Origin: a virus
DNA: 39,261 bases
Reading direction: 5' to 3' (one strand)
IMG/VR virus record: IMGVR_UViG_3300017963_000456
Location: 1 to 39,261 of that record
Shown here: piece after piece, positions 3,436 to 39,261 of the stretch
Layout of the letters: the number at the start of each line of letters is the position of its first letter
Numbering within the stretch: position 1 is the stretch's first letter
The notes under the pieces: model-generated
The model's database searches: none
What the model was told of the DNA's origin: nothing
What the model saw: only the letters and a program-made list of their open reading frames with translations
Translations under genes and position numbers: made by a program

Positions 3436-3635
3436 ATCACAATCCCTCACAGATCATTGACGCCATCCGCGTCGCGGCAGACTTGCCCGGCGCGGAATCG
3501 CTCAGGCCGGCCCTCCTCGACGGCGTTCGGCTGATCGCGGGGGCCGTCGCGGCGGCGGCTGACCTGCGTCGCCGCGCTGACGCGGTTCAGACGCAGCGTT
3601 CGAGTCTAGTGGAGGCTGGCGCAACGGATGCCTGA
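3432..3635 (+). CDS. Small alanine-rich helical protein
   Basis: 67 residues from GTG 3432, which overlaps the TGA of the preceding gene. The composition is alanine- and leucine-rich and helical (DGVRLIAGAVAAAADLRRRA). It is not a clear membrane segment, because arginines and an aspartate interrupt it. It lies immediately before the tubulin-like gene and overlaps it by eight bases, so it may be made in step with it. It does not look like TubR, the helix-turn-helix partner of plasmid TubZ. Function unknown. Confidence 0.5.
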   Translation: MNHNPSQIIDAIRVAADLPGAESLRPALLDGVRLIAGAVAAAADLRRRADAVQTQRSSLVEAGATDA

Positions 3636-4908
3636 GGCGCGCTACAGGTACGGCGGTCCTATAGACGGTCGCACCGTGGTTCGCATCAAGTCGTATGCTG
3701 TTGACCGTATTAGGCGCCGCACGATCCTGCTAGCATCGGGCGAGTGCTGGACAGAAGAATACGGGCCGGATGGTTGGCCGACCTTGATAACTAATGGGCG
3801 AACGCGCGTTCGCATTCAGACCGAAGGAGACCTGGCTATGGATATGGACTTCCCACAACTCGACGACCTTTCGACCGAGGAGCAAAGTACCGGCGCGATC
3901 GCCGATGAGGCGCCGAAGGCCGAGAAGGTCTGCTTTGTGGGGGTTGGCCAGGCTGGATGCAAGATCGCAGATACGTTTTGGGGAAAGGGATACCGGAGAG
4001 TCCTGCTTATCAACACGACCGAGCAAGACATGGCCGGCCTGACCTGTCCGAATCGCGTGATCATGAAGGGCGCCGGCCAGGGAGCCGGCAAGCAGCGATC
4101 GGTCGGCCGCGCCGCCGCCGAGGCAGCTCGAGAGGAAATCTTGCGCGCCATGACCCGCGCCTTTGGGACGGACTTCGAACGCATCGTCGTCTGCACATCG
4201 GGCGGAGGCGGCACCGGATCGGGGGCTAGTCCGGTCATCATTGAGATTGCGCGTCAGTTCTGCGTGGAGATGGAGAAGCCTCGCAAGGTCGGCGCCATAG
4301 TCGGCGGCCCGCGCAAGTCAGAAGGGGCAGCCGTGTCGGCTAACCATTCGGCGTTGCTGGCTGAGCTGCACGCCATGACCCCGACGCCCATGATCCTCAT
4401 GGACAACGAGCGTATCGCCAAGCTCTATCCGACGGCGTCCGTCGCGCAGTTCATGTCGATCGCCAATCAGAATCTTTGTGGCCTTTACGACGTCTTCAAT
4501 GGCCTCGCCGCTCAGCCGTCCCCATATTCGACCCTAGACCCCGCCGATTACCGATCGGTGCTTGATGCGGGGGTTTTGGTCTTCGGCATGACGACGGTCA
4601 AGGACGCAGCCGACCCGACTTCGATCGCGGCGGCGGTCGAAAAGAACATGGCCGGAGGACTGCTGTCTGACTCGGCAAAAATCCAGCATGCCTCGCATGC
4701 GGCCGGCGTCATCGTTGCTTCCAAGGCGCGGCTTGAAACCCTTGCTCAAACCACTCTGGATCGCGGATTCGAGGCCCTGAATCGACTGATCGGAACTCCG
4801 GGCCTGGTCATACACACCGGGATCTACCAAGGTCCAGATAGTTTAGGTGACAGGGTCTTGGTCTATTGCATCGCGTCGGGACTGAAATGGATGCCGGAGA
4901 GCCGATAA
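3628..4908 (+). CDS. Tubulin/FtsZ-superfamily GTPase (phage tubulin-like)
   Basis: 426 residues. The GTPase core starts near residue 98: VCFVGVGQAGCKIAD (tubulin/TubZ-style GQAG nucleotide loop, 105-110), LLINTTEQDMAGL (127-138), the tubulin signature GGGGTGSG (192-199) and STLDPADYRSVL (301-312), which matches the T7 catalytic loop with its two aspartates. Proteins of this superfamily bind GTP and polymerise; in phages, PhuZ positions capsids and TubZ moves DNA. Residues 1-70 are an extra strand-rich domain. ATG 3838 in the same frame, with AAGGAG at 3824-3829, could give a 356-residue form starting MDMDF. A 16-bp palindrome lies between the two starts. The gene sits in the virion operon, an odd place for a cytoskeletal gene. 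The family call is firm; the role is open. Confidence 0.88.
   Translation: MPEARYRYGGPIDGRTVVRIKSYAVDRIRRRTILLASGECWTEEYGPDGWPTLITNGRTRVRIQTEGDLAMDMDFPQLDDLSTEEQSTGAIADEAPKAEKVCFVGVGQAGCKIADTFWGKGYRRVLLINTTEQDMAGLTCPNRVIMKGAGQGAGKQRSVGRAAAEAAREEILRAMTRAFGTDFERIVVCTSGGGGTGSGASPVIIEIARQFCVEMEKPRKVGAIVGGPRKSEGAAVSANHSALLAELHAMTPTPMILMDNERIAKLYPTASVAQFMSIANQNLCGLYDVFNGLAAQPSPYSTLDPADYRSVLDAGVLVFGMTTVKDAADPTSIAAAVEKNMAGGLLSDSAKIQHASHAAGVIVASKARLETLAQTTLDRGFEALNRLIGTPGLVIHTGIYQGPDSLGDRVLVYCIASGLKWMPESR
3798..3813 (+). promoter_or_regulatory. 16-bp palindrome GCGAACGCGCGTTCGC, copy 1
   Basis: A perfect inverted repeat inside the 5' part of the tubulin-like gene, 24 bases before the internal ATG at 3838. 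The same motif occurs at 11986, 20820 and 37373, always in the same orientation. It could be a DNA operator or promoter element, or an RNA hairpin with a GCGC loop. Confidence 0.7.
3824..3829 (+). promoter_or_regulatory. Strong internal ribosome binding site for ATG 3838
   Basis: AAGGAG lies eight bases before ATG 3838, in frame with the tubulin core. It is better placed than the GGAGG at 3611-3615 that serves ATG 3628 at twelve bases. It supports a second, shorter product. Confidence 0.55.
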
Positions 4909-11985: not shown

Positions 11986-12001
11986 GTGAACGCGCGTTCG
12001 C
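11986..12001 (+). promoter_or_regulatory. 16-bp palindrome GTGAACGCGCGTTCGC, copy 2
   Basis: Same motif as at 3798, 20820 and 37373. Core GAACGCGCGTTC is a perfect 12-bp dyad. A TATCTT at 12004-12009 follows, at almost the same offset as TATCAT in the tmRNA promoter. The RHH gene starts about 130 bases downstream. Confidence 0.7.
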
Positions 12002-16582: not shown

Positions 16583-18028
16583 ATGGCTGAATCGACGCTG
16601 GCTGGGGGCACATACGAGGTCGTCGCTTACAAGGGCGGCCAAGAGTGGAATCGCACCAACTTTCCAGCTTTCTTTAACTCCATATCATCTGTCCGCGCGG
16701 ATGTCGGTGGAGGAGGGGCCTCCTCCATCACGATCACTCTGACCCCTAGTTTGATCGACGCTATCCTGATCCTGCAGTCCGGAATCCTAGGGGCCTCGAC
16801 AGCGGACCCGAGTTTGCTTCCGAGCAGCGGGGGTGGTGGATCACAGCAGCCATCGATCAGTAATGTCGGCGGCAATGCGTCCGCGACATCCGCCGACGCT
16901 CCCGCCAGCGCCCCTTCAAACGGTACCTATTATGCCGTTCGATTTCTGTATCCGGGCGTTCCCGAGGGGGACACGCCTTGGTATGGAGGGCACACGTGCC
17001 AGCCTAGTTTCGACATAAGCGGCGGACTAATCGACATCACCGTGAAGGTGACGGGCGTTCAGAACATGATGTCGATCATGGGAGGCCCGGTCGTTATCAA
17101 TAACGAATCGGCGCTCTCAGTCCTGAAGCGATTCGCTTCGAAGTTCAACGTGGAAATTACATTCGACGATGAGGACACGGAGACCGAGGCTCTCCTTTCC
17201 GACACAAAAATCAGCGGCGCTTTCAACGAAGATTACGACGACATCATCCGTCGCGTTCTCACAGACCTATTCTGCTCCTACGTCAAATACGACGGCGATG
17301 AGGCTGACCCGAAACCTCAGTATCGAATCAAATCTCTGAAATATCTGTCGAAGCAGCCGATCGAATATCACATTTGTGTTTTGAGACAGATCGATCCGTC
17401 TAACGGACAGATCCCTGCAGAGTTGTCTCTTGAGTCAGCTGGCGCGCTATTCGCCCCCGGCAATGCATTTGGAACATTTCAGCGCGAGCTTATTACCGGC
17501 GAAAAAAGGTTCGATCCATACGCTGGCAGTCCGCAAGATTACAAAGGTCAGTCTGATTCGGCTTCCAAGGCGGACTCTGGTTCGGTGCCTATGGATACAG
17601 GCGATGGATTGGCGAAAGGCGGCGCTACTGGCCTTGTCGACACTGGAGGCGATCTCGTCGCCGGCCATGTGGCGGCCGGCATCAAAAGAGGTGACCTAGA
17701 AAATCAGGACCGTCTTACGGCTGTTTCTGAGGCGTCCCGCACTGGCGCCTTGGTTTTTTCGGCGACATGCCCAGGAATCCCTCGAGTTCGTCCCCTCTCC
17801 TACGTCCAACTTACGGTTGGCCCAGGGGACGGGGGGATCGAAGCCTTCTCGGGTCCATGCCGAGTCACCGAGATCGCTCACGAATGCAACGATAGCGGTT
17901 GGACGACAACGCTCAAACTCTTCAAAACAGGCGGTCCAACTTACAACGCGTCCGCGACACCGAAGAAGGGCGAGGCGCCGAAAGCGCCAAACAAAGGCGC
18001 AATCAAGCAAGCTACGGATATTCCATGA
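16583..18028 (+). CDS. Baseplate hub protein (gp27 / P2 gpD-like)
   Basis: 481 residues from ATG 16583. The N-terminus has a strand plus glycine-rich region (SSVRADVGGGGASSITITLT). The middle fits hub proteins: LIDITVKVTGVQN, SALSVLKRFASKFNVEITFD, FNEDYDDIIRRVLTDLFCSY. The C-terminal strand domain (ATCPGIPRVRPLSYVQLTVG) resembles the second barrel of gp27/gpD hubs. The protein forms the trimeric centre of the baseplate on which the spike sits. Genes for LysM, hub and spike are adjacent here as in P2-like and T4-like clusters. The stop overlaps the spike start by ATGA. Confidence 0.75.
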   Translation: MAESTLAGGTYEVVAYKGGQEWNRTNFPAFFNSISSVRADVGGGGASSITITLTPSLIDAILILQSGILGASTADPSLLPSSGGGGSQQPSISNVGGNASATSADAPASAPSNGTYYAVRFLYPGVPEGDTPWYGGHTCQPSFDISGGLIDITVKVTGVQNMMSIMGGPVVINNESALSVLKRFASKFNVEITFDDEDTETEALLSDTKISGAFNEDYDDIIRRVLTDLFCSYVKYDGDEADPKPQYRIKSLKYLSKQPIEYHICVLRQIDPSNGQIPAELSLESAGALFAPGNAFGTFQRELITGEKRFDPYAGSPQDYKGQSDSASKADSGSVPMDTGDGLAKGGATGLVDTGGDLVAGHVAAGIKRGDLENQDRLTAVSEASRTGALVFSATCPGIPRVRPLSYVQLTVGPGDGGIEAFSGPCRVTEIAHECNDSGWTTTLKLFKTGGPTYNASATPKKGEAPKAPNKGAIKQATDIP

Positions 18029-19273: not shown

Positions 19274-19849
19274 TTGCCGGTCAAGCCGCAGGCTGAATGG
19301 GCAAGCACCTACGCCGAGGATCTTGAGCAATACTACTCGGACTACCAAGCCGCGCTCGAGCTTGGGGCGCCCGGCCCCCCGATCGTGGAATTCTGGGCTG
19401 GATGGGTCGCCAAGAATGCTGATGGCATCGAGACGACCGCTCCATATCCGGGGTCGATCGCCGTGGTCGACCAGTCCTCCTTCGCGCCGGTCGATTTTAC
19501 GGGCGTGGCGAGCGCTGTGCAGGCGGCCCAAGTTTTGGCCGACGCCTGGCAAGCGTTCATGAACGGCTTAACCTGGCCTCCTATGACGCCGGCCCCTCCA
19601 TTCACGGCCATAACCTCCGTCACCACGAGCGCGCTCGGGTTGACCGCCGCCTATGCTACGCTACTAGCGGGCTTGACCGCCGTGTTTTCGACTCTCCCGG
19701 CAAGCCCCGAGACGGCGATGCAAGAGAAGTCAGAGGCTATTGCCTCTCTTTTCTACACCGCGACCATCTCGGTTGGGGTCCAGATCGACGGCCTGGGGAC
19801 CGGAGCTCCGCCGCCGGCTGTGTCGATACCGCAATCGCCCGCGCTTTGA
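19274..19849 (+). CDS. Baseplate-region protein of unknown function
   Basis: 191 residues from TTG 19274, supported by GGAGG at 19262-19266. The middle is rich in Ala, Thr and Pro with a hydrophobic run (LGLTAAYATLLAGLTAVFST) that is weakly membrane-like. A start of YYSDYQAALELGAPGPP and an end of proline-rich sequence (GTGAPPPAVSIPQSPAL) are visible. No family is recognised. The proline-rich end precedes the even more proline-rich gene at 19859, so the two may act together at the tail tip. Confidence 0.55.
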   Translation: MPVKPQAEWASTYAEDLEQYYSDYQAALELGAPGPPIVEFWAGWVAKNADGIETTAPYPGSIAVVDQSSFAPVDFTGVASAVQAAQVLADAWQAFMNGLTWPPMTPAPPFTAITSVTTSALGLTAAYATLLAGLTAVFSTLPASPETAMQEKSEAIASLFYTATISVGVQIDGLGTGAPPPAVSIPQSPAL

Positions 19850-20400: not shown

Positions 20401-20823
20401 GTGGCAGCACCGCCGCTCAATTCTGGCACCACCCGTCCATCCAGCACCGCCGAATCACAACGTGACTTGGTGGGGATTTCTTTCCCGTTCCGCAAGGAAA
20501 ATGGGGAATTCCCCGCGCGCGTGCGGAACGCGGATTGCGTGCAAAACAACATTTTCACGCTATTCAAAACGCCGAAGCGCAGTCGTATCATGCGGCCGTT
20601 GATGGGAACGAATGCTTACGATCTCGTCTTTGAGTCACAGGGATCTCTGCTCAAGACGCGGCTCGACCGTGGAATTCGCCAGACCATCAAGAATGGCGAG
20701 CCTCGAGCCAATCCCCTCAGTATCAGGATCACTGATACCGACTCCGAGACCACGGCCGAGGTACTCTATGAGGTTCAGGGAGTGCGCGAGGTCATAGCGT
20801 TGGATCCCTTCCAGAAAAAGTGA
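20401..20823 (+). CDS. Baseplate wedge protein gp25-like
   Basis: 140 residues from GTG 20401, six bases after GGAGGG. The first ~28 residues are a low-complexity lead (NSGTTRPSSTAESQRD). The core has the gp25/gpW pattern: LVGISFPFRKENGEFP, NIFTLFKTPKRSRIMRPLMG, TNAYDLVFESQG, then LLKTRLDRGIRQTIKNGEPR and a last strand TAEVLYEVQGV. This protein clamps the sheath to the baseplate wedge in contractile tails. It precedes the gpJ gene, which is the usual pair. Confidence 0.85.
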   Translation: MAAPPLNSGTTRPSSTAESQRDLVGISFPFRKENGEFPARVRNADCVQNNIFTLFKTPKRSRIMRPLMGTNAYDLVFESQGSLLKTRLDRGIRQTIKNGEPRANPLSIRITDTDSETTAEVLYEVQGVREVIALDPFQKK

Positions 20824-20835
20824 ACGCGCGTTCGC
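20820..20835 (+). promoter_or_regulatory. 16-bp palindrome GTGAACGCGCGTTCGC, copy 3
   Basis: Lies across the gp25 stop codon and just before the GGAGG at 20838-20842 of the gpJ gene. As RNA it could form a 6-bp stem with one U-G pair and a GCGC loop next to the ribosome binding site. Confidence 0.65.
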
Positions 20836-35755: not shown

Positions 35756-36100
35756 CTAACCCCGCAGCAACGCCACGAGCGCCTCATATCCTTCGTCCAG
35801 AAGGATCTCCGTATCCCCGTCAGTCAAAATCACCGCTGAGTCAGCGCCATCGTTCTGTGGGATGGCGACGGCTATCGCCTTTTTGTTTATCAGCATGGTT
35901 TTGTCGCCGGTCTCGACGACCTCGATGAACGACGGATGATCCGCGAGCGCGCGCGCGATCGCCTGGAAGCCCTCGTCGACTCTCATGACGCCGCCGCATC
36001 TCATGGTGATCAGAGAGCCGCTATCTTCGTGAGCGACTATTTTAAGGATCCAGTCGGCATTGACCGTAACGGGCGTTTCTCGCGTGACTTTGATGAACAT
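35756..36100 (-). CDS. Minus-strand protein with two FlbD-like repeats
   Basis: 114 residues starting at 36100 on the minus strand; AGGAGA lies seven bases upstream (reverse complement of 36107-36112). Two similar halves are visible: a strand VNADWILKIVAHEDSGSLIT then MRVDEGFQAIARAL, and INKKAIAVAI then SAVILTDGDTEILLDEGYEA and LVALLRG. The pattern resembles the small FlbD-type fold, without clear identity. It is the only minus-strand gene with coding quality, and it diverges from the collagen-like lipoprotein gene. It may be a regulator or a moron. Confidence 0.6.
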   Translation of the reverse strand: MFIKVTRETPVTVNADWILKIVAHEDSGSLITMRCGGVMRVDEGFQAIARALADHPSFIEVVETGDKTMLINKKAIAVAIPQNDGADSAVILTDGDTEILLDEGYEALVALLRG

Positions 36101-36308
36101 CTGGGTCTCCTCTAGGTCAGGGTGGTTGGGCCTGGTTTACCCAAAAACGGCAGGGAGCCCGAGTCCTCATTTCCGGCAGCCGCCAACAGCCCGGGTTTTT
36201 GTTAGTCGAGTCGCCGTGTTGCCGGTCAAAAATAGCCCTAAAGTCCTGCCGCAGGATGCCGAAGAAGGTGTCGACGGTCAAAACCGGCCGGAAATTAAGG
36301 GGGTTTAT

Positions 36309-37295
36309 ATGAGGATCTCGATTTTCCTTTTCGTCGGTCTCACGGCAGCCTGCGGCACCGCGCCAACGGCGGGCGATAGTCCTAGCGTGACGGCCTCCCA
36401 GGCGCCTGCGGCGGCCACGCCGATCAGCAACGCCAAGCAGGATAGCGGCGTGACGACGGTCGCCTCGCCGGCCAAGCTGCCGACCTGCGACGGCGCCGCC
36501 GAGGGCACACTGGCCTACGTCCGCTCGGAGCGATCCCTCATGATCTGCGAGGGGGCCGATTGGGTCGCGGCGCCTATCGCCGACGGCGGGGCCGGGAAGG
36601 ACGGGCGCGACGGTCGCGACGGCAAGGACGGCGCCCCGGCGAGCGTCGATATCGCCGAGGTCGAGCCGGGCGACGTCTGCGCGGCGGGCGGCGCTGTCAT
36701 CACGCCATTCGTCGACACGGATGGCGACGGGCTCCTCGGCGCCGACGACGACCCTGGTGACGCCGAGGTCGTCTGCGACGGCGAGGCGGGCGTGGACGGC
36801 GAGGCAGGCGCGAAGGGCGCCAAGGGGGAGGCTGGGGCCAAGGGTGACAAAGGCGACAAGGGCGACGCTGGCGCCGACGGCACCGACAACCATATCGTCA
36901 TGAAGTACGTTTGCACGGGCGCGGTCAGGCACGCCTCGATGGCGAGCGGGACGCCGACCGACCTTTCGAGCACATATCAGGTCTTCGTCGACTCCTCCGG
37001 CGACGCTAGGGCCTGGGCGCAGATCGCCTGGGGCGACATCCCGGCGGTTCCGCAGACGGCCGGCTACGGCCAAATCTGGACGGCCGAGTACAGCGCGTCT
37101 GAGGCGGGCGCTGAGACAGCGATCGTGTCGGGCCTGATGAACTGGAACACCGGCCCATCGGGGGCCTCCTACACGGGGCGCTGGACCTTCACGCTCGACC
37201 GCGCAAACGATACCGCGCAGGCCAAGTATGACGACCCGGACATGACGCCAACGTCGGTTTGGTTTACGCACACCTGCACCAAGACGACCTTCTGA
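36309..37295 (+). CDS. Collagen-like lipoprotein
   Basis: 328 residues from ATG 36309, after AAGGGGG. Signal with the lipidated cysteine likely at residue 15 (LTAAC). A Pro/Ala/Ser-rich linker follows, then a small module with LPTCDGAAEGTLAYVRSE and LMICEGADWV, of a type common in deltaproteobacterial surface lipoproteins. Gly-X-Y collagen-like runs flank a calcium-loop-like motif (DTDGDGLLGADDDP, residues 136-149): GKDGRDGRDGKDGAP and GAKGDKGDKGDAGADG. The globular C-terminal part ends HTCTKTTF. A surface-exposed trimer on the host is likely. The 208-base gap upstream likely holds its promoter, not located. Confidence 0.75.
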   Translation: MRISIFLFVGLTAACGTAPTAGDSPSVTASQAPAAATPISNAKQDSGVTTVASPAKLPTCDGAAEGTLAYVRSERSLMICEGADWVAAPIADGGAGKDGRDGRDGKDGAPASVDIAEVEPGDVCAAGGAVITPFVDTDGDGLLGADDDPGDAEVVCDGEAGVDGEAGAKGAKGEAGAKGDKGDKGDAGADGTDNHIVMKYVCTGAVRHASMASGTPTDLSSTYQVFVDSSGDARAWAQIAWGDIPAVPQTAGYGQIWTAEYSASEAGAETAIVSGLMNWNTGPSGASYTGRWTFTLDRANDTAQAKYDDPDMTPTSVWFTHTCTKTTF

Positions 37296-37318
37296 TCCGA
37301 CCTTGAGGGCGGGCGACG

Positions 37319-37343
37319 AGGGCTGCCATTTGGCGGCCCTTTT
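37319..37343 (+). terminator. Rho-independent terminator after the collagen-like gene
   Basis: GGGCTGCC (37320-37327) pairs with GGCGGCCC (37332-37339), including one G-U pair, around an ATTT loop. A TTTT run at 37340-37343 and further T residues follow. It separates the lipoprotein gene from the tmRNA. Confidence 0.8.
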
Positions 37344-37365
37344 CGCTTTCCGCGCGCTTCCCTCC

Positions 37366-37395
37366 TTGCCGCGCGAACGCGCGTTCGCCTATCAT
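37366..37395 (+). promoter_or_regulatory. Sigma70-type promoter of the tmRNA gene
   Basis: TTGCCG (37366-37371) and TATCAT (37390-37395) are 18 bases apart, and the tmRNA 5' end follows eight bases after the -10. The whole spacer is filled by palindrome copy 4, a usual place for a repressor or activator site. Confidence 0.6.
37373..37388 (+). promoter_or_regulatory. 16-bp palindrome GCGAACGCGCGTTCGC, copy 4
   Basis: Perfect inverted repeat between the -35 and -10 of the tmRNA promoter. Identical to copy 1; copies 2 and 3 differ at one base. Confidence 0.75.
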
Positions 37396-37403
37396 CGAGC
37401 CAT

Positions 37404-37810
37404 GGGGATGATTTGGTTTCGACTGGACCAGGAACAACTGCTAGCGCGTCGAGAATTTCGGCGATCTCGTCAAAACGCCGAGAATCCAAACCAGGCAACG
37501 ACAATGTTGTCCATGTCGACTTCAGCCGCAAGGCTTCGGTCGTCAAGCTCGCGGCTTAAAAATCCGCGAGGGTAGCCGCCGGAACGCTACCGTAATCAGC
37601 CCGGCAAAACGTCGGTTTTCTAGTTCTTCCGACGATAAGTCAAAAGGCTAGATCGAGGTCTCTGGCTCGACGAAAAGTCAGGGTGGTGGAGGCGGCATTA
37701 TAGGTCGCCCTTGGTGTGATAGGATTGCTGGAGCCTTAAAAGACCAGCTACACGCGTAGAATGGCGGAAGCGAACGGTACAGGACCCGGGTTCGAATCCC
37801 GGCATCTCCA
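37404..37810 (+). ncRNA. ssrA: Transfer-messenger RNA (tmRNA), one-piece, phage-encoded
   Basis: The 5' end GGGGATG (37404-37410) pairs with CATCTCC (37803-37809), with one G-U. The conserved ATTTGGTTTCGACTGG follows the 5' acceptor strand. A T-arm with CCGGG, TTCGAAT, CCCGG lies at 37786-37802. The tag frame runs from GGC 37494 to TAA 37557-37559: 21 residues starting GNDN and ending VKLAA, a typical protease-tag end. An A lies four bases before the resume codon, as in E. coli. The tag stop is in the loop of CTCGCGG/CCGCGAG (37548-37570), the usual helix 5. A CUACACGCGUAGA-type pseudoknot segment precedes the 3' end. CCA is not encoded. It rescues stalled ribosomes and marks the product for degradation. 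Confidence 0.93.
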
Positions 37811-37912
37811 CTCTCTGACTATCCCGCTAGCGACCCGATGTCGTAAAATAAGACCCACCCTTCACAGTGTGACTGGCCCGGACCGTTGACCCCATCCAAC
37901 GGAGGACTGGCC

Positions 37913-38692
37913 ATGGCAATCGCTCGCAATTTCAAGGGCTGGACGCGAGACCCCTGGGATCCGAGGGACCGGCGTTTCTCGGCACCATCGCCAAACCTCA
38001 AGTACCCGCGCAAAGCCGACATTTATCGGTTTTGCCAGCCGATGCTGGACCAGGGATCGCTGGGCAGCTGCACGGCTCATATGGCGGTCGAGCTGTATAT
38101 GCAGGCCGAGTTCGAGAGGTTCGGCAAGACGACGCTCAAAAGCCGACTGGCGACATATTGGTGGACCCGTCTTCTTATGGGCACTCTCAACGAAGATTCT
38201 GGCGCGACGATTCGCCTGGCGATCAAGTCGCTCGCCAAGTTTGGCGCGTGCGAGGACTCGCTCTATCCGAACGATGCGCAGCGGTTTGTCGAGAAGCCGA
38301 GCGAACAGGCGATCGCGAGCGCGAAGCAGAACATCGCCGTCCAGTACGCTCGCGTGCCTCACACGGCCGACGGCTTTCGCGACCGGATTATGCGTGGGGA
38401 TGCCATCGGGATCGGCTTCGACTGTTTCGACAGCTTGATGAGCCATCGGACGTTGCAGACCGGCATCATTCCGATGCCAAAGCGCGGGGAGCAGTCAAAC
38501 GGCGGGCACGCCGTCGTCATCGTCGCATACGACGACGATCGCGGCGTCTTTGTGATCAAAAACTCCTGGGGTAATCGGGTCGGTCTATCGCCGCAGCCAG
38601 GCTTGCCGCGAGGATACTTTGAGATCCCAATGGAATACCTGCTCGACCCGAAGTTGTCCGCCGATCCTTGGGCTCTGATGGTCGTCACCTAA
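37913..38692 (+). CDS. Papain-like (C1A family) cysteine peptidase
   Basis: 259 residues from ATG 37913, six bases after GGAGGA at 37901-37906; TTG 37886 lies upstream but lacks a site. Catalytic pattern: MLDQGSLGSCTAHMAVE places Gln47 (oxyanion hole) and Cys53, GGHAVVIVAYDDDRG places His199, and FVIKNSWGN places Asn217. There is no signal peptide and no long propeptide. Enzymes of this family cut peptide bonds; some phages carry them, possibly for processing of virion proteins, host takeover or lysis. It is preceded by the tmRNA and followed by a membrane protein and a lipoprotein, so a lysis or moron context is plausible. Confidence 0.88.
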   Translation: MAIARNFKGWTRDPWDPRDRRFSAPSPNLKYPRKADIYRFCQPMLDQGSLGSCTAHMAVELYMQAEFERFGKTTLKSRLATYWWTRLLMGTLNEDSGATIRLAIKSLAKFGACEDSLYPNDAQRFVEKPSEQAIASAKQNIAVQYARVPHTADGFRDRIMRGDAIGIGFDCFDSLMSHRTLQTGIIPMPKRGEQSNGGHAVVIVAYDDDRGVFVIKNSWGNRVGLSPQPGLPRGYFEIPMEYLLDPKLSADPWALMVVT

Positions 38693-38733
38693 TCCGCTCA
38701 TGCGATGAGCCCGAGAAGACGAGGAGCCGTATC

Positions 38734-39042
38734 GTGGCAGATCCCCGTATGACGTTCGCGAACTTTGTGGACCGCGCCTTCTGGACGCTACTGCTCGCAA
38801 TCATTGGCTTCGGCGTGAAATTTTTGGGGGAGTTGTCGACGAATGTTCGAGAACTCAACTCAAAAATCGAAGCGGTGATTTTTGAATCCCGGGTTCACGA
38901 GACCGAGATCGGCGACCATGAAGTTCGCCTCCAGGATCACGAACATCGTCTAAACGCACTCGAACGTGCCGTCACGCGAAAGGGAAATCTCTATGATCCG
39001 ATTCCGCCTCGCCGCAGTAATGGCTCTCGTCGTCGCGACTGA
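38734..39042 (+). CDS. One-TM coiled-coil protein (holin- or spanin-like)
   Basis: 102 residues from GTG 38734, seven bases after GAGGAG. A membrane segment near residues 17-33 (FWTLLLAIIGFGVKFLG) is followed by a helical, heptad-like region (LSTNVRELNSKIEAVIF, HEVRLQDHEHRLNALERAV) and a basic, proline-rich tail. One N-terminal TM plus a periplasmic or cytoplasmic coiled coil fits an inner-membrane spanin or a small holin. The next gene overlaps its end in another frame and encodes a lipoprotein, as in Rz/Rz1 pairs. The lipoprotein is too long for a classic Rz1, so the spanin idea is only tentative. Confidence 0.55.
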   Translation: MADPRMTFANFVDRAFWTLLLAIIGFGVKFLGELSTNVRELNSKIEAVIFESRVHETEIGDHEVRLQDHEHRLNALERAVTRKGNLYDPIPPRRSNGSRRRD

Positions 39043-39261
39043 GGCTTGTGGATCGAGCCAAGAAGAGGCGGCGGCTCCGCCTCCTGTTCTGCCTCGAGCC
39101 GAGGAGCTCTCGGCGCTCGAGGGCGCAGAAACTGCGGCTATCGGGCGCCTGCTCGAGCGTCACCTGGATTCGGGCATGGTCGTCTCGAGGACTCGCCCAG
39201 ACGACGGTTCTCCTCGTGATATCGGGGACTCAGCCATTTTCACTGGGATCGCGCTCGGAGC
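38993..39261 (+). CDS. Lipoprotein, partial at the right window edge
   Basis: At least 89 residues from ATG 38993; no stop before the window end. N-terminal signal (FRLAAVMALVVATEACGSS) has a weak lipobox with Cys19. The mature part begins acidic and proline-rich (EEAAAPPPVLPRAEELSALE) and includes DGSPRDIGDSAIFTGIALG near the edge, which is not recognised. It starts 50 bases inside the preceding gene in a different frame. It could be an outer-membrane spanin partner or an independent surface lipoprotein. The length beyond the window decides this. Confidence 0.6.
   Translation, partial: MIRFRLAAVMALVVATEACGSSQEEAAAPPPVLPRAEELSALEGAETAAIGRLLERHLDSGMVVSRTRPDDGSPRDIGDSAIFTGIALG

Follow-up and report, generated by a model that had tools for sequence, protein, structure and literature searches.

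A one-piece phage tmRNA whose long tag has a conserved interior

A contractile-tailed phage sequence raises the question of whether the phage encodes its own tmRNA and, if so, what the long peptide tag of this RNA might be for. The sequence is a 39,261-base IMG/VR record, analysed as a whole and called the window here, which carries a tail module with sheath, tape measure, baseplate and fibre genes. A preliminary description of the window had proposed a phage one-piece tmRNA with an acceptor, a TGGTTTCGAC box, a tag frame, helix 5 and a T-arm at positions 37404–37810. We located all of these parts, and the proposed ends are exact to the base, with the first base of the acceptor (G1) at 37404 and the discriminator A at 37810.

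37404..37810, plus strand: one-piece tmRNA gene (ssrA), 407 nt, with no encoded CCA (Rfam RF00023; sequence)

A full-length, unpermuted tmRNA gene

The covariance-model search that had been suggested as a check accepts the gene. Rfam model RF00023 matches positions 37404–37813 (+), scoring 114.2 bits where the cut-off is 47 (E = 4.6e-44), and the match spans the whole model (positions 1–374 of 374). Within the window this is the only Rfam model to reach its threshold; the permuted two-piece models RF04321 and RF01850 do not reach theirs anywhere in it. A check of gene order found no T-arm upstream of G1 and one 385 nt downstream, and thus the gene is one-piece and unpermuted. The letters directly after the discriminator A are CTC, not CCA; since the gene does not encode CCA, this end would be added post-transcriptionally. 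The region 37404–37810 is a full-length one-piece tmRNA.

With default settings, ARAGORN reports zero tRNAs and zero tmRNAs in the window. Lowering its score threshold to 90% recovers the span 37404–37811, wrongly called as permuted and with the wrong tag AGTLP. Because default ARAGORN misses such tmRNA genes, phage tmRNAs have probably been undercounted in the literature.

Anatomy of the RNA and its tag frame

37404..37410, plus strand: 5′ strand of the acceptor stem, GGGGATG, which pairs with CATCTCC at 37803–37809 and includes a G3·U pair (sequence, Rfam alignment)
37414..37423, plus strand: TGGTTTCGAC box, the D-loop-like segment of the tRNA-like domain (sequence, Rfam alignment)
37450..37483, plus strand: pseudoknot PK1, CGAGA/TCTCG and TTTCGGCG/CGCCGAGA (pseudoknot scan, PK1 position in the Rfam alignment)
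37494..37559, plus strand: tag frame, with resume codon GGC at 37494, tag GNDNVVHVDFSRKASVVKLAA and stop codon TAA at 37557–37559 (translation, position after PK1)
37548..37570, plus strand: helix 5, stem CTCGCGG/CCGCGAG (7 bp), with the stop codon TAA in its loop
37571..37605, plus strand: pseudoknot PK2 (pseudoknot scan)
37610..37652, plus strand: pseudoknot PK3 (pseudoknot scan)
37653..37683, plus strand: pseudoknot PK4 (pseudoknot scan)
37691–37720, plus strand: additional candidate pseudoknot (pseudoknot scan)
37786..37802, plus strand: T-arm, CCGGG-TTCGAAT-CCCGG (sequence, Rfam alignment)

The tRNA-like part of the molecule is typical of a tmRNA, with an alanine-type acceptor, a T-arm and no anticodon arm. 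The G3·U pair in the acceptor is the mark of alanyl-tRNA synthetase substrates. The tag frame is also as expected of a tmRNA, in that it follows PK1, comprises 21 codons ending LAA-TAA and places its stop codon in the loop of helix 5; the LAA terminus named in the preliminary description is seen in the translated frame. This frame is further backed by conserved peptides in related tmRNAs. Its resume codon is GGC, unlike the common GCN.

Four H-type pseudoknots occur in the canonical order, and the sum of the top four was equalled by 2 of 200 dinucleotide shuffles. This chance test is modest because GC-rich shuffles also form knots and because one of the top four knots lies inside the tag. The pseudoknots are thus supportive rather than strong alone, and the covariance-model score is the stronger evidence.

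A conserved core inside the tag

The most interesting feature of the locus, which the preliminary description missed, is the conserved interior of the tag.

37503..37532, plus strand: conserved tag core NVVHVDFSRK (common to the tmRNAs L081, L150, L202 and L121)

The pattern N-V-V/I-H/R-V-D-F-S/G-R/K-K/R is present in five one-piece phage tmRNAs on contigs that are mostly unrelated. Besides the window tag, the core is found in the tags NNSNVVHVDFGRKVASQRMAA (L081), RNDNVIHVDFGKRKQVEVPLAA (L121, the tmRNA of contig G013), GDNVVHVDFGRKAAVARAA (L150, in a 175-kb contig) and ANDNVVRVDFSRKADLRLVA (L202, in a 157-kb contig), and a sixth tmRNA carries a looser version (DENVVSLDAFRAKRAPSLRLAA, L062). 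Rfam supports L081 (78 bits) and L150 (106 bits), and ARAGORN calls both L202 and L150 as tmRNA. The L081 and L121 RNAs were picked among 126 phage loci by the 5′ tRNA-like motif alone, without reference to the tag. The L150 and L202 RNAs came from targeted scans whose patterns already required the peptide, and for this reason their codon-position counts were not used as proof of selection.

Between the window and L081, the core is identical at 27 of 30 nt (90%) and the 5′ tRNA-like domain (TLD) at 75%, with all else at 41–55%; the tag outside the core and the pseudoknot regions are only 41–45% identical. Against L121, the corresponding values are 77% for the core, 83% for the 5′ TLD and 41–53% for the remainder. 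The core thus ranks first in conservation in the comparison with L081, and in that with L121 only the 5′ TLD ranks above it. Across the 126 loci, the best 30-nt core identity was 27 for L081, 18 for L121 and at most 16 for all others. A viral scan with a looser pattern yielded no additional tmRNA with the core, and in the literature searched we found no occurrence of the string NVVHVDF and no description of this tag interior. With so much divergence elsewhere in the RNA, the retention of this interior suggests that, at least in these phages, selection acts on the peptide as well as on ribosome release.

Small proteins of phages and bacteria (L133, L134, L135, L145, L168, L184, L185, L205 and others) also carry the motif N-V-V-x-V-D-F close to their C-terminus. 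The motif lies within 20 residues of the protein end in 9 of 21 sequence clusters, compared with 4.4 expected from position alone. Judged from these sequences, the tmRNA tag and the small proteins may have a short binding motif in common.

Phage context and relatives

36060..37295, plus strand: upstream neighbour, a collagen-repeat tail fibre protein (Pfam PF01391, PHROG tail fibre families)
37886..38692, plus strand: downstream neighbour, a papain-like (C1) peptidase (PF00112, phrog_16701)

The tmRNA gene sits between these two genes. The peptidase has a homologue in a tmRNA-carrying phage contig, G008 (tblastn E = 8e-24), and an IMG/VR search gave no confirmed relative of it. The window also encodes a PhuZ/FtsZ-group tubulin at about 3838–4908 (Pfam E = 7e-18), for which tblastn against named phages returned no match.

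The IMG/VR sheath search returned a single contig (G001), whose sheath is 100% identical and which represents the same phage; it adds about 9.5 kb upstream of the window, an extension referred to as L236. Contig G013 (134,619 bases) encodes a sheath, a baseplate protein and a tubulin that are 40%, 35% and 35% identical, respectively, to those of the window, and its tail genes are inverted but collinear in order. Its tmRNA lies at 132063–132465, 14 kb from the tubulin gene and far from the tail genes. No tail sheath genes of PHROG 23 were found in G008, G009 or G012, and these contigs have little in common with the window except for the peptidase and a few matches to fibre proteins or enzymes. 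By these comparisons, the phages that share the tag interior are mostly unrelated.

A nucleotide search with positions 36900–39261 gave zero matches among 50,697 phage records, and a search with the tmRNA alone gave matches limited to T-arm stretches of actinophages. Matches to the sheath and baseplate proteins in named phages are all below 60% identity (20–30% in the best rows) and indicate no coherent host. No SmpB gene was found in the window record or in six related records, although all seven may be fragments. The scan of the larger window ORFs revealed no integrase.

Proposed function and competing explanations

In established tmRNA biology, a G3·U pair directs alanine charging, SmpB, EF-Tu and S1 take part in delivery to the ribosome, the stalled product is tagged, and a terminal LAA directs proteolysis by ClpXP. 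Our preferred reading, to which we assign a probability of roughly 0.85, is that the window encodes a working, phage-owned tmRNA that is charged by the host, uses host SmpB and tags rescued peptides for proteolysis, with the core probably acting as a second recognition element. The RNA would be transcribed from its own promoter and completed by a host enzyme that adds CCA, after which host alanyl-tRNA synthetase would recognise the G3·U pair of the acceptor and charge the RNA. In infected cells, ribosomes stalled on broken messages would receive it through SmpB, EF-Tu and S1 of the host, a rescue that may benefit the infection. The ribosome would then move to the GGC resume codon, append A-GNDNVVHVDFSRKASVVKLAA and end translation at the helix 5 stop codon TAA, and the peptide would carry the terminal LAA as its mark for ClpXP-type proteolysis. 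The core NVVHVDFxRK probably serves as a second recognition element, for example for a host adaptor or protease, rather than as a spacer. Tagged peptides would be expected to survive with an LDD version of the tag, in which LAA is changed to LDD (A-GNDNVVHVDFSRKASVVKLDD).

What the core signifies can be read in two ways. One tentative proposal, which we consider rather unlikely, is that large-phage lineages share a phage-specific tag whose interior would be a dedicated recognition signal. Through it, the products of rescued ribosomes would reach a particular protease, adaptor or binding partner, either in place of the ordinary tag pathway of the host or in addition to it. The other, which falls a little short of an even chance, is that the core belongs to the tag of a host lineage, such that phages took or copied the ssrA gene of one bacterial group and the peptide is a host degron that is not specific to phages. 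This explanation is a rival to a phage-specific core and leaves the tmRNA call untouched. Resemblance to the tmRNAs of host lineages is frequent among phage tmRNAs (PMC9004378), the L202 tag starts with ANDN as do ordinary proteobacterial tags, and the NNIVxFxR motif of cyanophage-type tags is a lineage-specific interior motif common to many phages. We rank a host origin of the core above phage specificity because such cyanophage-type interior motifs can be lineage-wide. Scans of bacterial genomes speak against it. A near-exact core (NVVHVDFxR, with a G-type codon before the R) gave six matches in 84,980 genomes, none of them in a tmRNA, in a scan that placed the variants NVVRVDF and NVIHVDF outside its reach for most bacteria and that would also pass over rare or unsequenced hosts. 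Furthermore, none of 398 Pseudomonadota genomes, nor any of 5 others, contained a looser, tmRNA-anchored pattern.

Three further explanations challenge the working, phage-owned tmRNA itself, and all are improbable. The RNA could act against host trans-translation as a decoy, by titrating the SmpB of the host or in some other way. Such a role has been proposed for an RNA of mycobacteriophage DS6A that consists of a tRNA-like domain only (PMC4131195), and the lack of a detected phage SmpB would suit it. However, the DS6A-type RNA has little beyond the tRNA-like domain, with no tag frame and no pseudoknots, whereas the window RNA retains PK1–PK4, the tag frame, helix 5 and a conserved peptide. 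Because every part needed for tagging is kept, a decoy role fits poorly and we consider it improbable. Slightly more improbable still is a decaying or non-functional copy, which might explain the rejection by default ARAGORN and the unusual GGC resume codon but is at odds with the 114-bit model score, with intact stems and an open tag frame, and with the conservation of the tag core among phages that have diverged. The least probable of all is that the gene stems from the host chromosome next to a prophage, or from a contig chimera. The ssrA gene is a known integration site, as two reports note (PMC9004378, PMC12656738), and the preliminary description had named host DNA flanking a prophage as the finding that would overturn it. 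This now looks very unlikely, given that the tmRNA gene is complete and one-piece, that it is flanked by genes for a tail fibre and for a peptidase that has a homologue in a phage, and that the scanned ORFs include no integrase. A tmRNA of the same subfamily also lies inside the 134-kb virus contig G013, and because this related phage keeps the gene at a different position, border DNA is an unlikely source.

Comparison with known phage tmRNAs

The preliminary description considered phage tmRNAs uncommon, a view that the numbers do not bear out: tmRNA genes are present in 402 of 18,146 phage genomes, with 133 unique tmRNA structures of which 53 are two-piece (PMC9004378), and one IMG/VR motif scan recovered at least 119 stretches. 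Among the matches listed for phage loci, ARAGORN reports 24 unique one-piece tags of 9–21 residues and 43 two-piece tags of 9–31 residues, of which a few reads look to be in the wrong frame. The 21-residue tag thus sits at the long end, as had been claimed, but it has precedents in the 22-residue tag of EniyanLRS and in the cyanophage-type tags of 21–31 residues. Both the presence of a phage tmRNA and a tag of this length are ordinary, as tags of 21–22 residues are already present in cyanophages and mycobacteriophages.

The Wildcat-type tmRNAs of mycobacteriophages (EniyanLRS, Cosmo and Azrael100) are likewise phage-encoded and one-piece with a long tag, annotated in EniyanLRS as the 22-residue AVDTDVDFAMWEAELASDLVAA. 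Their similarity to the window RNA is limited to the T-arm and acceptor (29 nt), and the tag, the family of the phages and the phylum of their hosts are different. Two-piece tmRNAs of the cyanophage type in IMG/VR (for example, with the tag ANTSDSAANNIVAFSRSTVAA) and of the methylophage Melnitz are also phage-encoded, but their genes are circularly permuted. The cyanophage-type tags are long, up to 31 residues, and their interior NNIVxFxR resembles N-V-V-x-V-D-F-x-R-K, although in these two-piece tmRNAs the tag core is shorter and lacks H-V-D. The available text on Bradyrhizobium elkanii phages (PMC12656738) describes tmRNAs in virulent phages without known lysogeny genes, these being siphophages and podophages. 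As described in the available text of Al-Shayeb et al. 2020 (PMC7162821), huge phages are large phages with translation genes including tmRNA; their set includes SmpB genes, whereas none was found in the window record.

A candidate promoter and a repeated palindrome

37318..37341, plus strand: candidate intrinsic terminator, which would close the tail-fibre gene unit upstream (3 found against 2.7 by chance, weak alone)
37366..37395, plus strand: sigma70-like promoter, TTGCCG – 18 nt – TATCAT (consensus match only)
37373..37388, no strand assigned: 16-bp perfect palindrome GCGAACGCGCGTTCGC, a candidate operator that fills the promoter spacer

One sigma70-like promoter match was found near the gene, compared with 0.6 expected by chance over 3.3 kb, and its predicted start site is close to G1 (37404). 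The palindrome has seven matches with up to three mismatches, compared with 0.9 expected. Near or exact copies are located at 3798–3813, 11986–12001 and 20820–20835 of the window, and two further copies are at positions 39 and 3824 of the upstream extension L236. The preliminary description had placed a shared palindrome in the tmRNA promoter; it does occupy the spacer of the sigma70-like match, but the other copies lack that arrangement. Palindrome-linked regulation of the tmRNA is plausible from this layout.

The copies follow the consensus [GC][TC]GAACGCGCGTTCGCA and are roughly 4–17 kb apart. They are mostly intergenic, several stand right before a ribosome-binding site (as at the tubulin and baseplate genes) and one precedes a terminator-like hairpin. 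We rejected the idea that the other copies mark the same promoter, as only the tmRNA copy is flanked by −35-like and −10-like boxes. The tubulin gene likely starts at the ATG at 3838, just after a palindrome copy, rather than at 3628.

Additional observations

Two tRNAs with a CTA anticodon are encoded in contig G008, at 17622–17698 and 19490–19563 of the segment L260 (G008 60001–80000), which suggests reassignment or suppression of TAG in this phage. Another phage contig that also carries a tmRNA (L008) encodes a tRNA with a TTA anticodon, which reads TAA, at 2407–2482. In the window, a 90-nt direct repeat (766–855 and 1141–1230, 90% identical) lies at the starts of two neighbouring ORFs and suggests that a gene was recently duplicated in tandem.
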